From the NCBI GenBank assembly GCA_019694755.1, contig JAIBBI010000029.1, positions 1-43,199 of the forward strand: a stretch of DNA of 43,199 nt. Reading direction: 5' to 3'. A model generated the notes under the pieces. It was not told the DNA's origin. It did not search any database and worked only from the letters and a program-made list of their open reading frames with translations. This stretch comes from Gemmataceae bacterium. GTDB taxonomy: Bacteria; Planctomycetota; Planctomycetia; Gemmatales; Gemmataceae. This document shows positions 16,150-20,956 of this stretch, in pieces (the first letter of the stretch is position 1; each line of letters begins with the position of its first letter). The position numbers and the translations under genes are program-made.

Positions 16150-16680
16150 ATGTCCCGATTGATTTTCGTCAATTTGCCGGTCAAGAACCTCGCGAAATCG
16201 ATGGAGTTTTTTCGCCGGCTCGGATACCGTTTCAATCCGAAGTTCACAGACGAGACGGCCGCATGCATGGTTGTCAGCGAGACGATTTATGCCATGCTGC
16301 TTACGCACGACAAGTTCCGGCAGTTCATCCCAGGGGGAATCTGCGATGCGTCGAAAGACTCCGAGGTACTCGTCTGCCTGAACTGCGACAACCGGACCGA
16401 AGTTGATGAAATGATCGGCAAGGCCGTTGCGGCCGGAGGCACAACCTGGAAGCCTCCGCAAGACTTCGGGTTCATGTACGGTCATTCATTCCGCGACCTG
16501 GACGGCCACATCTGGGATGTACATCTGGATGGACCCTACATCCGTCAATCCGTGACGCCGTTTCATTCAAGTAGTCCGGGTTCTCTTCTGAAACCCGGAC
16601 TGCCGGAGGAATCCCGAGTCAACCGCGGATCAAAAGTCGCGCGACCGGATTTCACGTCATACATGCAGCCCACTACCTGA
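16150..16680 (+). CDS. VOC (glyoxalase/bleomycin-resistance-like) family protein
   Basis: From ATG 16150 (preceded by GAGGAATCAAC) this is a 176-residue protein with the vicinal-oxygen-chelate pattern: FVNLPVKNLAKSMEFFRRLGYRFNPKFTDETAACMVV, then EVDEMIGKAVAAGGTTWKPPQDFGFMYGHSFRDLDGHIWDVHLD. One likely metal-ligand His/Glu position is occupied in the second half, but a full metal site is not obvious, so enzymatic activity is uncertain. The normal VOC fold ends near residue 137; the remaining about 39 residues are an extra tail that runs opposite the last codons of the SulP-carbonic anhydrase gene. Last member of the ECF42-linked gene set. Confidence 0.88.
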   Translation: MSRLIFVNLPVKNLAKSMEFFRRLGYRFNPKFTDETAACMVVSETIYAMLLTHDKFRQFIPGGICDASKDSEVLVCLNCDNRTEVDEMIGKAVAAGGTTWKPPQDFGFMYGHSFRDLDGHIWDVHLDGPYIRQSVTPFHSSSPGSLLKPGLPEESRVNRGSKVARPDFTSYMQPTT

Positions 16681-18818
16681 ATCGCACCCGATTCCGCAAG
16701 ATCGCGAATGCACTTGCTGTGTAAAAAAATGGTAGAAATGGTCTGGCGAACATTTTCTTCTGCTACCTTGTCGACGAACTCTTCGTGGCTACCGCTCTGA
16801 TCCAACAATACTCCCGGCCTAATGGCCCGACGAATTTCTGAAAGCAAAACTTCAAGGTTTTCGCACCGACACAGATCTTCCGTGCATTGTTCTTCCAGTG
16901 CAGAATTGACCGCAGCGGTCACCGCGCCGCATCGGGTATGACCCATTACAACAATAAGTTTGACTCCGGCGACCACGGCCGCATATTCCAAGCTTCCGAG
17001 TACCTTTTCCCTGGCGACATTTCCGGCAATCCGAACTGTCAGTAGATCTCCCAACCCGACATCAAAAATGAGCTCCGTCGGCGCTCGGGAATCAATGCAG
17101 CTGAGAACAGCAGCCAGCGGGAATTGCCCGGTTGCGGTGGCATTCAACTGGCGGTTAAGATCACGTGAAAGTCGGGTCCCATGGAGAAACCGCTCGTTGC
17201 CATCTTTTAGAATCTGCAAGGTGCGTTCCGGTGTCAGCGCATTCCGGATTTCACGACTGGTGTAATCAGCAAACAGGATACGGTCTTCCACTTGATCGTA
17301 GTGGTTCTTGAATCCGACCATGCTGACTCGGATTCCGCGTGTCGGTGCCACTTCGCATTCGAACTCGCGAATGAGCTGAAGAATGTCCGCATCGATATAG
17401 TCCGTATCACGGGCGTCGAGTAGCACCTGCGTCCCTTCGGCGATGTCCTCGAGCGTTTTCGCTATCATCGCCCGGTTCAGAAAGCTGACCTGATTTGGCA
17501 ACTGGAGATGGAGGACATCCCCGCCAATGTGCCGTTCGACGATCCGGTTCAATGGCCGTTTCAGGTTGTTGAACAAGATGAACGCGAGGCTGACGCCTAG
17601 CCCGATCAGTATCCCGACGAGCAGGTCTGTAAAGACAATCGCGAGTATGGTAATGATGAACGGCAGAAACTGATTCCATCCCTGCCGCCAGAAGCTCTTG
17701 AAAACCGCCGGTTTGGCCAGCTTGTAGCCGGTCACGATTAGAATGGCGGCCAGTGCAGCGAGCGGAATTCGGTTAAGGACGGTGGGCATAAGTACGACGC
17801 AGGTGATTAGAAGCAATCCATGAAACACCGTGGCGACTCTCGATTGTCCCCCCGCATAGATGTTCACGGAGCTGCGAACGATTACGGACGTCACGGGGAT
17901 TCCGCCGAGAAGTCCGGAAAGCAGATTGCCGACTCCTTGGGCGAAGAGTTCTCGATTCGGCGGTGAAGTTCGGCGGTCGGGGTCGATTTTGTCGACAGCC
18001 TCGAGGTTCAGCAGTGTCTCAAGCGACGCGACGATTGCGATCGTTGCAGCGGCCGCATACACCGCCTTCGATCCAAGTCCCGAGAAGTCTGGAAACAGGA
18101 ACAAGCTGCTGACCCGGGCCCAACCTTCTGCGTCCGGTAACCGAACCATATGTTCCGGCCCGATGATCCAGTTGCCCCGAAACAAGGTGGCTAGCAGGGA
18201 GCCGAAAATCACCACCACCAACGGCGCGGGAACCACAGACTTCTTAAGTACCCGAACTTTCCCCCACACGATCATGAGTGCGAGACAACTCAGCCCGACC
18301 GTGGCGGCACCAATGTCGATGTCGAAGGTCGTCTCGATCAACTCCGTCAGAGAGTTCTTCTGATCAGGCTGAAGAAACGACATCTCCCCCTCGTCGTCTA
18401 TGTCATGTCCGAAGAGGTGGGGAACCTGCTTAAGGATGAGTACTATTCCAATGGCAGCCAAAAGTCCGTTGATGACGCAATTGGGAAAGAACCTCGCGAA
18501 TCCGCCCGCCCGGAGGGCAGCGAACACGAGTTGGATCAACCCCGCCATCGCGACCGCGACAAGGAATCGCTCGTAGGAACCGGCGGCGGTGATTTGGGCT
18601 GCCACCACTGCTGTCAGTCCCGCCGCAGGCCCACTGACCGAAACTCGCGATCCGCTCAGGATACCGACAACTACTCCGCCAATGATCCCTGCCAGGACTC
18701 CCGACATGAGCGGAGCATTTGACGCGTGAGCAACACCCAGACACAGCGGCAACGCAACGAGAAACACGACCAGACCGGCAACGAGGTCCTGTCGAATTGT
18801 GGCGAGTCGATTTGCCAT
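16563..18818 (-). CDS. SulP anion transporter fused to beta-carbonic anhydrase
   Basis: A 751-residue bifunctional protein. Residues of about 1-420 form the SulP membrane domain (VSGPAAGLTAVVAAQI; ETLLNLEAVDKID; GGIPVTSVIVRSSVNIYAGG are family signatures), followed by a STAS-like segment (about 435-540, VLLDARDTDYIDADILQLI). Residues of about 545-730 are a beta-carbonic anhydrase with zinc ligands Cys574 (CIDSR, with the Asp-Arg dyad) and His627-x-x-Cys630 (GHTRCGAV). Such fusions are thought to move bicarbonate or another anion and to interconvert it with CO2 at the membrane. The C-terminal 20 or so residues (DSSGSPGFRREPGLLE) overlap the tail of the convergent VOC gene by 118 bp. All key residues are present, so both halves are probably active. 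Confidence 0.95.
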   Translation of the reverse strand: MANRLATIRQDLVAGLVVFLVALPLCLGVAHASNAPLMSGVLAGIIGGVVVGILSGSRVSVSGPAAGLTAVVAAQITAAGSYERFLVAVAMAGLIQLVFAALRAGGFARFFPNCVINGLLAAIGIVLILKQVPHLFGHDIDDEGEMSFLQPDQKNSLTELIETTFDIDIGAATVGLSCLALMIVWGKVRVLKKSVVPAPLVVVIFGSLLATLFRGNWIIGPEHMVRLPDAEGWARVSSLFLFPDFSGLGSKAVYAAAATIAIVASLETLLNLEAVDKIDPDRRTSPPNRELFAQGVGNLLSGLLGGIPVTSVIVRSSVNIYAGGQSRVATVFHGLLLITCVVLMPTVLNRIPLAALAAILIVTGYKLAKPAVFKSFWRQGWNQFLPFIITILAIVFTDLLVGILIGLGVSLAFILFNNLKRPLNRIVERHIGGDVLHLQLPNQVSFLNRAMIAKTLEDIAEGTQVLLDARDTDYIDADILQLIREFECEVAPTRGIRVSMVGFKNHYDQVEDRILFADYTSREIRNALTPERTLQILKDGNERFLHGTRLSRDLNRQLNATATGQFPLAAVLSCIDSRAPTELIFDVGLGDLLTVRIAGNVAREKVLGSLEYAAVVAGVKLIVVMGHTRCGAVTAAVNSALEEQCTEDLCRCENLEVLLSEIRRAIRPGVLLDQSGSHEEFVDKVAEENVRQTISTIFLHSKCIRDLAESGAIQVVGCMYDVKSGRATFDPRLTRDSSGSPGFRREPGLLE

Positions 18819-19474: not shown

Positions 19475-20956
19475 TCACTCCAGCATTTTCCGGAGTTGAG
19501 CTGCGACCTTTGCCGGATCCCGGGCCTGCCCGATGCACCCGCTGACCGCAATGCGGGTGCCGCCCGCGGTCCGAACGCTGCCGACGTTTTTCTCGTCGAT
19601 CCCTCCGATGGCAAACGCCGGGATTGAGGTCATTCTCGTCGCTTCGGTGATGTACTCCAGCCCCGCCAGACGCGGAAACTCTTTAGTCAAAGACGGAAAC
19701 GTCGGGCCCATCCCGATGTAATTCGCCCGGTCCATAACCGCTTGTCTTACCTGTGGTATGTTGTGCGTGCTGACTCCGATGATGGCGTCGGCCCCGAGAA
19801 TGGCACGGGAGGATGAAACGGACATGTCATCCTGGCCAAGATGCACGCCGTCGGCTTCGACGACTCTCGCGATGTCAGGTCGATCGTTGACGATCAAAAC
19901 CGCGTTACCGGACCGCGTGACTTGGCGCAGTGCCCGGCCGATTGCAATCAACTCGCGGTCGGCCAGACTCTTCGCACGAAGTTGAACCATGTCAACGCCG
20001 CCGGCGATCGCCTCGCGGACTCGCCATTCCAGATCGGGTATGGGCCCGACGAGATAACAGAGTCGGGACCGATCCAGGCGGTCGCACATGTTCGCGGCGA
20101 GCACGGCCTCGAGGGTATAGGCCCGATACCTGAGTTGTTCGCATTGGATGGCGAAATCGCGGCTGACAATCTTGCCGAACTCTTCGAGAGTTCGCAGCGA
20201 TTCCTGTAGCCGCCGGGAGTTGGCTGCAACCACATCCTGAACCGAGTCGCGAACGTACTCGTTCGCCGTACTCAGCGTTGTTCCCACATCGCCCGGAGTA
20301 TCGCGGGCGGCGAGTCGTTTCGCGAGCGGCAACTGCCGCAAAGTGATACCGAGATCGTGCCTGAAGCTTTTGGCCGCCTCAGCCAGTACCCCGTCGTTAC
20401 GAACGAAGCGAACGTAGTCTTCGAGGACTCGGATGGCCTCGGACGCTCGATCCGCATTGGCGTCCAGAACGCGATACACCGAGATGTCCTGACTCAACTC
20501 CGTGCAGGGGTCAGGCGGCGCGGGCGGAGCCGAATTCACCACGGGAATCGGATCCAGTGCTTCTCCGAGGACTTTTCGTTCAAGTTTCGGTCCGTCCATG
20601 CCGAAAGCGGCCCACTCGTCAGCCAGGTCGGACTCGGTTTGTTGTAGCGCGAGCAGCAGCAGACTGCTCGTAACTGTTCTGTCGCCGAAGTACTCCCTGG
20701 CCAGGCTGCGGGCCCTGCGAAATGCCCTGGTTTCCTCGCTGGACGAGAGCACATTCTTCACATGGTCCGACCACGTGTCGATGTCTAATCCGCAGAAATG
20801 AGCGGCCGCAAAGGCCTCGCCGTCGCGATCGTGGAACAACGCAGCTGCAAGCACTCGCGCAGTTATGGGGCCCAGCCCCCGCAGTCGCTCGGCCTGAGCA
20901 AGCGCCCGCTCAGCACCCGGGGAAAAATCCGCCGAGTGTCGAAACTGATTCGTCAT
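19475..20956 (-). CDS. thiE: Thiamine-phosphate synthase with ThiD2 and Clp-N-like N-terminal regions
   Basis: A 493-residue protein with three parts. Residues of about 299-493 are the ThiE TIM-barrel that joins HMP-pyrophosphate and thiazole phosphate: QLRAK at 325-329, VNDRPDIA at 356-363, VHLGQDD at 371-377, GVSTHN at 394-399, GPTFPS near 417 and AIGGI near 449. Residues of about 154-285 (YRVLDANADRASEAIRVLEDY; RLQESLRTLEEFGKI) match the ThiD2-type helical domain that precedes ThiE in cyanobacteria and some other bacteria. Residues of about 1-135 look like a Clp N-terminal repeat region (FSPGAERALAQAERLRGLGP, TVTSSLLLLALQQ). Most ThiE proteins are about 210 residues, so this one is more than twice as long. 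All ThiE motifs are intact, so the enzyme should be active. Confidence 0.9.
   Translation of the reverse strand: MTNQFRHSADFSPGAERALAQAERLRGLGPITARVLAAALFHDRDGEAFAAAHFCGLDIDTWSDHVKNVLSSSEETRAFRRARSLAREYFGDRTVTSSLLLLALQQTESDLADEWAAFGMDGPKLERKVLGEALDPIPVVNSAPPAPPDPCTELSQDISVYRVLDANADRASEAIRVLEDYVRFVRNDGVLAEAAKSFRHDLGITLRQLPLAKRLAARDTPGDVGTTLSTANEYVRDSVQDVVAANSRRLQESLRTLEEFGKIVSRDFAIQCEQLRYRAYTLEAVLAANMCDRLDRSRLCYLVGPIPDLEWRVREAIAGGVDMVQLRAKSLADRELIAIGRALRQVTRSGNAVLIVNDRPDIARVVEADGVHLGQDDMSVSSSRAILGADAIIGVSTHNIPQVRQAVMDRANYIGMGPTFPSLTKEFPRLAGLEYITEATRMTSIPAFAIGGIDEKNVGSVRTAGGTRIAVSGCIGQARDPAKVAAQLRKMLE

Follow-up and report, generated by a model that had tools for sequence, protein, structure and literature searches.

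The window (the whole stretch of DNA that was analysed, 43,199 nucleotides of a contig from a Gemmataceae bacterium) contains on its minus strand an uninterrupted open reading frame that runs from 20956 to 19475, starts with ATG and encodes a predicted enzyme of thiamine synthesis of 493 amino acids. The gene and its domains are laid out as follows:

19475..20956, minus strand: whole gene, a Clp_N-ThiD2-ThiE fusion of 493 amino acids (open reading frame, Pfam, NCBIfam, relatives)
20552..20956, minus strand: Clp N-domain, residues 1-135, two repeats with eight helices (profile, Pfam on relatives, AlphaFold, fold searches)
20474..20551, minus strand: linker, residues 136-161, ending where the first ThiD2 helix starts (AlphaFold)
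20105..20473, minus strand: ThiD2 domain, residues 162-284, predicted HMP-P kinase (PF17792, E = 7.2e-40; invariant residues)
19478..20062, minus strand: ThiE domain, residues 299-493, thiamine-phosphate synthase (Pfam, NCBIfam, solved structures)

The initial annotation, made from the letters of the sequence, had placed ThiE at residues 299-493 and a ThiD2-like domain at about 154-285, with some 135 residues in front of them, and these borders are correct to a few residues according to Pfam and NCBIfam. TMP-TENI (PF02581) was matched at residues 309-474 (E = 7.6e-54), and the NCBIfam model for thiamine phosphate synthases of the ThiD2-ThiE type (NF002727, PRK02615) covers residues 155-493 with 361.9 bits against a cut-off of 335. 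Solved structures of ThiE match the protein with a best E of 1.7e-34. In an alignment of 38 homologues, Q325, R327, K329, N357, D361, H372, L373, G374, Q375, D376, D377, S396 and G417 of the ThiE domain are invariant and D358, P418, K425, G451 and G452 nearly so; we take this set, from Q325 to G452, to be the active-site motifs. Behind the N-domain, Pfam found ThiD2 and TMP-TENI only, and no AAA+ modules. All three domains were recognized by Pfam in single relatives, with Clp_N at 29.3 bits (L163), 39.5 bits (L173) and 92.7 bits (L215) against a cut-off of 20.7. AlphaFold models were made from alignments of 19 rows (the N-domain) and 38 rows; the full-length model (pLDDT 92.2, pTM 0.71) contains a low-confidence stretch at about residues 131-150, between the N-domain and ThiD2 (pLDDT about 60), which on the strength of the model is probably a flexible tether.

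The gene is the sole ThiD2-ThiE gene found in its own genome (5.6 Mb, 97% complete), and no canonical ThiD (TIGR00097) was found there by a search whose control was positive in 14 of 14 genomes, so the ThiD2 domain is the likely HMP-P kinase; ThiD2 is an HMP-P-specific kinase according to the available part of PMC12345177. Judging from this gene content, the enzyme probably carries the genome's only HMP-P kinase and TMP synthase: the ThiD2 part would turn HMP-P into HMP-PP, and the ThiE part would make thiamine phosphate from HMP-PP and thiazole phosphate. ThiC occurs as two fragments, on contigs C227 and C217 of the draft, and a TPP riboswitch lies upstream of thiC on contig C227 (L269, 1403-1502). 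No TPP riboswitch was found before thiE, either in the window or in eight other thiE loci. The neighbours of the gene are not thiamine genes: upstream are a divergent gene for an outer-membrane efflux protein and a gene for a phosphonate-binding protein, and downstream are a small cupin-like gene and a gene that joins a SulP-type anion transporter to a beta-carbonic anhydrase (16563-18818, minus strand; Sulfate_transp at residues 9-386, Pro_CA at 570-726).

The N-terminal residues, 1 to about 135, are almost certainly a homologous Clp N-domain. Taken alone, the window copy has no match to Clp_N in Pfam (whole protein at E ≤ 1, residues 1-169 at E ≤ 10), and its homology therefore rests on its relatives and on its own structural model. 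The relatives were selected for a stretch of 110 residues or more in front of ThiD2 and a 5' end that is not open (66 rows), not for resemblance to Clp_N; a motif rule supplied the start codons, apart from those of L006, L034 and L130, which were set by hand, and L054, L092 and L106 were removed by eye because only 37-105 residues separate the picked start codon from ThiD2. Individually, 49 of the 63 remaining N-termini have a Clp_N match at E ≤ 0.001 (best 2.2e-16) and 57 at E ≤ 10, and none of the other Pfam families listed matched more than one member. A profile of the 63 N-termini has 78 matches at E ≤ 10 to PDB sequences, with a ClpC1 N-domain on top (E = 5.2e-23) and N-domains of ClpC1, ClpC, ClpB and ClpA among them; the best 60 of the 78 are Clp, Hsp104, ClpV or ClpT by name, or one kindred T6SS protein. 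An HMM of the N-termini from which the window row had been left out gave residues 1-155 of the window protein 76.5 bits (E = 1.5e-22), compared with 9.5 bits for the highest of 1000 shuffled sequences. Because this score is so far above the shuffles and a matching protein is present in 59 of 59 related genomes, neither the open reading frame nor the fusion is due to chance. The N-terminus diverges fast, and consequently, when used as a single-sequence query, it finds matches in only 10 of the 59 genomes.

The AlphaFold model of the N-domain (19 sequences, pLDDT 87.7) has eight helices (residues 13-26, 33-42, 47-54, 59-66, 78-90, 97-107, 109-117 and 122-130) arranged as two four-helix repeats. 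When it was compared with known structures by Foldseek and VIA, N-domains of Clp, Hsp100 and ClpT proteins were among the best matches listed, the top one being the ClpB N-domain 1khy_A with Z = 16.3 over 122 residues (rmsd 2.3 Å), which exceeds the Z of about 13 to which, as the tool warns, common helical arrangements can rise. The resemblance to a Clp N-terminal repeat that was proposed initially is thus upheld by the profile against the PDB, by Pfam in 49 of 63 relatives and by the fold searches; the confident Clp_N match comes from the family profile, the relatives and the fold, and the window sequence alone gave none. The finding named in advance as counting against it was a plain helical linker or a different N-terminal domain already known from ThiD or ThiE; nothing of either kind was seen, and both are ruled out by the 63-member Pfam scan and the structural matches listed.

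The protein can be regarded as an enzyme of a known kind to which a Clp N-domain has been added, with a role for the added domain that we infer from the comparisons below. Its domain order is that of the ThiD2-ThiE enzyme of cyanobacteria and others (NF002727/PRK02615), and over the core the protein shares about 31-46% identity with the cyanobacterial and Melainabacteria-type homologues sampled, whereas the sampled non-planctomycete and Phycisphaerae homologues begin at or near ThiD2 without a Clp N-domain. The N-domains of ClpC, ClpB and ClpA (PF02861) share its eight-helix double repeat (ClpC N-domain 2k77, Z = 15.9, 127 residues, rmsd 2.9), but the AAA+ modules that follow them are missing from the fusion, the structural alignments have only 12-23% identity, and the phospho-arginine glutamate in repeat 1 of ClpC is lost in nearly all ThiE copies. 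ClpT proteins accompany the core of the Clp protease as subunits; ClpT1, ClpT2 and ClpT4 of plants and algae resemble the domain in being accessory modules with a Clp N-like fold (4y0c_B, Z = 13.9; 7eko_O, Z = 14.5) but are not fused to a metabolic enzyme. Mycobacterial ClpC2 likewise has a Clp N-domain outside an AAA+ chaperone (8ad9_A, Z = 14.9, 122 residues, rmsd 2.3), but it is a self-regulating cyclomarin-binding protein with a C-terminal Clp-like part and no attached enzyme, as described in the accessible text of PMC10030653. ClpN repeats fused to conflict-system proteins are reported in the part of PMC7159879 that was available, and no description of a Clp N-domain joined to thiamine phosphate synthase was found in the literature searched. 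Other Clp_N matches outside ClpC and ClpB were also observed: in the window's own genome, a stand-alone protein of 184 amino acids (24.2 bits; G000:C244:50611-50748, L148 1231-1785, minus strand) and a 418-codon frame downstream of a 300-codon open reading frame (25.2 bits; G000:C216:2551-2673, L147); and in genome G031, a 148-codon open reading frame with two Clp_N matches.

The fusion occurs throughout the class Planctomycetia. A class-wide search with the full-length alignment matched 297 of 297 genomes, and most of the matches listed start in the first few positions of the model, which correspond to the N-domain. In 78 thiE loci under 21 family labels, which were picked for family coverage and partly after their clp neighbours were known, so that counts among them are not random-sample frequencies, 48 have the N-domain and 30 lack it: all 19 loci of the window's family (f1) and the three related families f2, f3 and f5 carry it, as do 14 of the 15 loci of f4, and the remaining families are mixed. 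The conservation in Gemmataceae that the initial annotation had put forward as a check was therefore found, and the N-domain is kept beyond that family as well. A plasmid search with the gene gave no match.

In a tree of the ThiD2-ThiE part of 101 proteins (many inner branches of which are weak, and from which G217 was excluded for having a core of fewer than 300 residues), all 23 outgroup rows, from Phycisphaerae, other Planctomycetota and other phyla, are unfused, and the families of mixed state fall mostly within one supported clade of 42 rows, 14 fused and 28 unfused, for which "Pirellulales-like" serves as a working label. Fusion state changes 13 times on this tree, versus 33.9 times in shuffles. 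The simplest reading of the tree is one early gain followed by repeated losses: the ancient fusion, including that of the window, would be a single early gain near the base of the class, and the N-domain, which is missing from many Pirellulales-like genomes, would have been lost later in those families. The early gain may have followed the same kind of route, from a neighbouring clpC, that is apparent in one genus (see below).

The class-wide search revealed that a second Clp_N match, in a gene of about 850-890 codons for a Clp ATPase, often adjoins thiE, and when compared with the ClpC and ClpB proteins that the genome of the window encodes, this neighbour proved to be a divergent clpC. The divergent thiE-clpC pair is present at 41 of the 78 loci, 19 with the Clp_N fusion and 22 without; it is found at none of the 19 loci of f1, f2, f3 and f5 and at 41 of 59 loci elsewhere, in 14 of 17 families, and several of the loci without clpC (e.g., G095, G224 and G063) stop at contig ends. 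The window's own genome does not have clpC beside thiE but on another contig. The neighbourhood would have been lost from f1, f2, f3 and f5, probably through later rearrangement. In public genomes, six further loci, whose titles all name planctomycetes, show ClpC matches in the 3-kb flank, compared with none of the other 74 loci. At four loci that were read, the space between thiE and clpC is occupied by a gene of about 200 codons (L152 6882-7487, L154 5363-5926, L167 7512-8177, L180 4984-5649); it has a hydrophobic start with the pattern WPGL..LW, and the two copies that were scanned have TPR motifs.

By identity and by tree placement, the N-domain of ThiE in one genus has evidently been taken from, or overwritten by, the adjacent divergent clpC. 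The ThiE N-domain of G168 (family f16, locus L215), in a protein where Pfam finds Clp_N (92.7 bits) together with ThiD2 and TMP-TENI, is 57.6% identical to that of its own adjacent ClpC and at most 42.6% identical to the other ThiE N-domains compared, and in the tree it lies inside the ClpC clade with support of 100/100. The same pattern in the sister species G237 (L249; Clp_N 93.3 bits), whose ThiE N-domain is 53.6% identical to a clpC N-domain that does not differ from that of G237 itself where the two align, speaks against an assembly error in G168. These N-domains would represent a recent capture or gene conversion. In G090, thiE and clpC are separated by a truncated ClpC-N gene (L157 6613-7449, minus strand, 278 amino acids, Clp_N 131.2 bits), which duplicates part of clpC (68.5% identity over 108 residues). 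From the G168 and G237 N-domains and the G090 duplicate it follows that a neighbouring clpC donates N-domains to the thiE locus, and fusions apparently arose at least twice, once anciently and once from clpC.

Assignment of the ancient N-domain to ClpC or to ClpB by sequence failed. The ClpC HMM, which is narrow because its rows share about 96% identity, outscores the ClpB HMM in 15 of 92 ThiE N-domain rows; Smith-Waterman scores favor ClpC in 40 of 92 rows by the mean and in 15 of 92 by the best score. All ThiE N-domains except that of G168 lie outside both the ClpC and the ClpB groups in a tree with long branches, for which the bootstrap had not settled. With scores slightly nearer to ClpB and a tree placement outside both groups, the donor of the ancient domain cannot be named.

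The duplicate beside thiE in G090, the origin of fusions on at least two occasions and the existence of several lineages without the domain would all be expected if partial duplication of an adjacent clpC sometimes dropped N-domains into thiE by accident, to be tolerated there but not used. This neutral explanation is improbable in view of how the domain has evolved. For closely related sequences, 46 of 66 possible pairs had dS below 1.6 in the core, and in the 45 informative pairs (not independent of one another; one further pair of identical sequences is uncounted) omega of the N-domain ranges from 0.09 to 0.63, compared with 0.04 to 0.25 for the enzyme core. With omega below 1 in 45 of 45 pairs, the N-domain is evidently under purifying selection, and the model and the alignment indicate that its eight-helix fold has been held through most of the class at a mean pairwise identity of about 29%.

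A further explanation is that the N-domain has a structural or oligomerising role, or acts as a spacer, and is no longer tied to Clp; it has a substantial claim, although it would surprise us somewhat if it proved to be the whole answer. In nearly every pair omega is higher for the N-domain than for the enzyme core, mostly by a factor of 1.5-4, a speed of evolution that a loosely constrained spacer might show; its conserved columns are mostly hydrophobic positions; and it is dispensable in many Pirellulales-like genomes. The residues by which ClpC binds phospho-arginine point the same way. In ClpC, glutamates E32 and E106 act in the two phospho-arginine sites, and a hydrophobic groove is the other known docking surface of the N-domain, according to the available text of PMC12583610. 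Both TEH motifs are present in 42 of 42 planctomycete ClpC proteins, but in a count of 91 ThiE N-domains (with L215 excluded, and with at least G045 and G052 each entered through two loci) the equivalent of E32 in repeat 1 is glutamate in two and lost in 89, and the equivalent of E106 in repeat 2 is glutamate in 54 and acidic in 74. The window copy has R and S at these positions and thus neither glutamate, and phospho-arginine docking is unsupported for it; the clpC-derived copy of G168 retains both. The loss of the glutamates means that any docking, in most species and in the window organism, is not by the two-site phospho-arginine grip of ClpC. Against a domain of structural value only, its recruitment from ClpC in one genus suggests that a ClpC-type function is useful, unless proximity alone explains it, and thiE remains beside clpC in 14 families.

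The role that we propose for the N-domain is that of a tethered docking module for partners of the kind that bind Clp N-domains, either adaptors such as ClpS, of which the window's own genome has two, or exposed peptides of substrates, and such docking would tie the amount or the location of the enzyme to the Clp system. Control exerted post-translationally through the N-domain would naturally complement the missing riboswitch control at thiE. As a whole chain, from the fusion through donation by clpC, a single early gain and catalysis to docking of the Clp type, this account is put forward tentatively, as having slightly under an even chance of being right in every part. A different role for the N-domain would be that of a decoy similar to ClpC2, in which the N-domain soaks up Clp-targeting peptides or competes for the partners of ClpC and the thiamine enzyme is a mere carrier. 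The Clp-like domain of ClpC2 is among the structural matches of the N-domain, and ClpC2 sequesters cyclomarin from ClpC1 according to the accessible part of PMC10030653. No drug-like ligand or induction is known for the thiamine enzyme fusion, and we consider a decoy very improbable. A biosynthetic enzyme would be expected to be a carrier of low abundance.

Returning to docking as the preferred role, the hypothesis of a link between thiamine synthesis and proteostasis becomes more plausible with the thiE-clpC gene order and the second capture of an N-domain. Such a link is not far-fetched, since the CLPC1 protein of Arabidopsis traps the thiamin-pathway proteins THIC and PYRP2 in the available text of PMC8889267. 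In its strongest form, which we regard as unlikely though worth stating, Planctomycetia would link thiamine synthesis physically with the Clp protease through docking partners common to ThiD2-ThiE and ClpC. If so, proteolytic load would determine how much enzyme there is or how active it is, or ThiD2-ThiE would be a client or a brake of ClpC, and the divergent thiE-clpC pair and the repeated capture of Clp N-domains would be the genomic traces of the coupling; a metabolic enzyme would carry the receptor domain of an unfoldase. What the class Planctomycetia contains is a widespread, selectively kept fusion of a proteostasis receptor domain with an enzyme for an essential cofactor, whose evolutionary source, the adjacent clpC, is visible in at least one lineage where the event was apparently repeated. 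The fusion makes the roles of Clp N-domains outside AAA+ rings testable in cultured planctomycetes.
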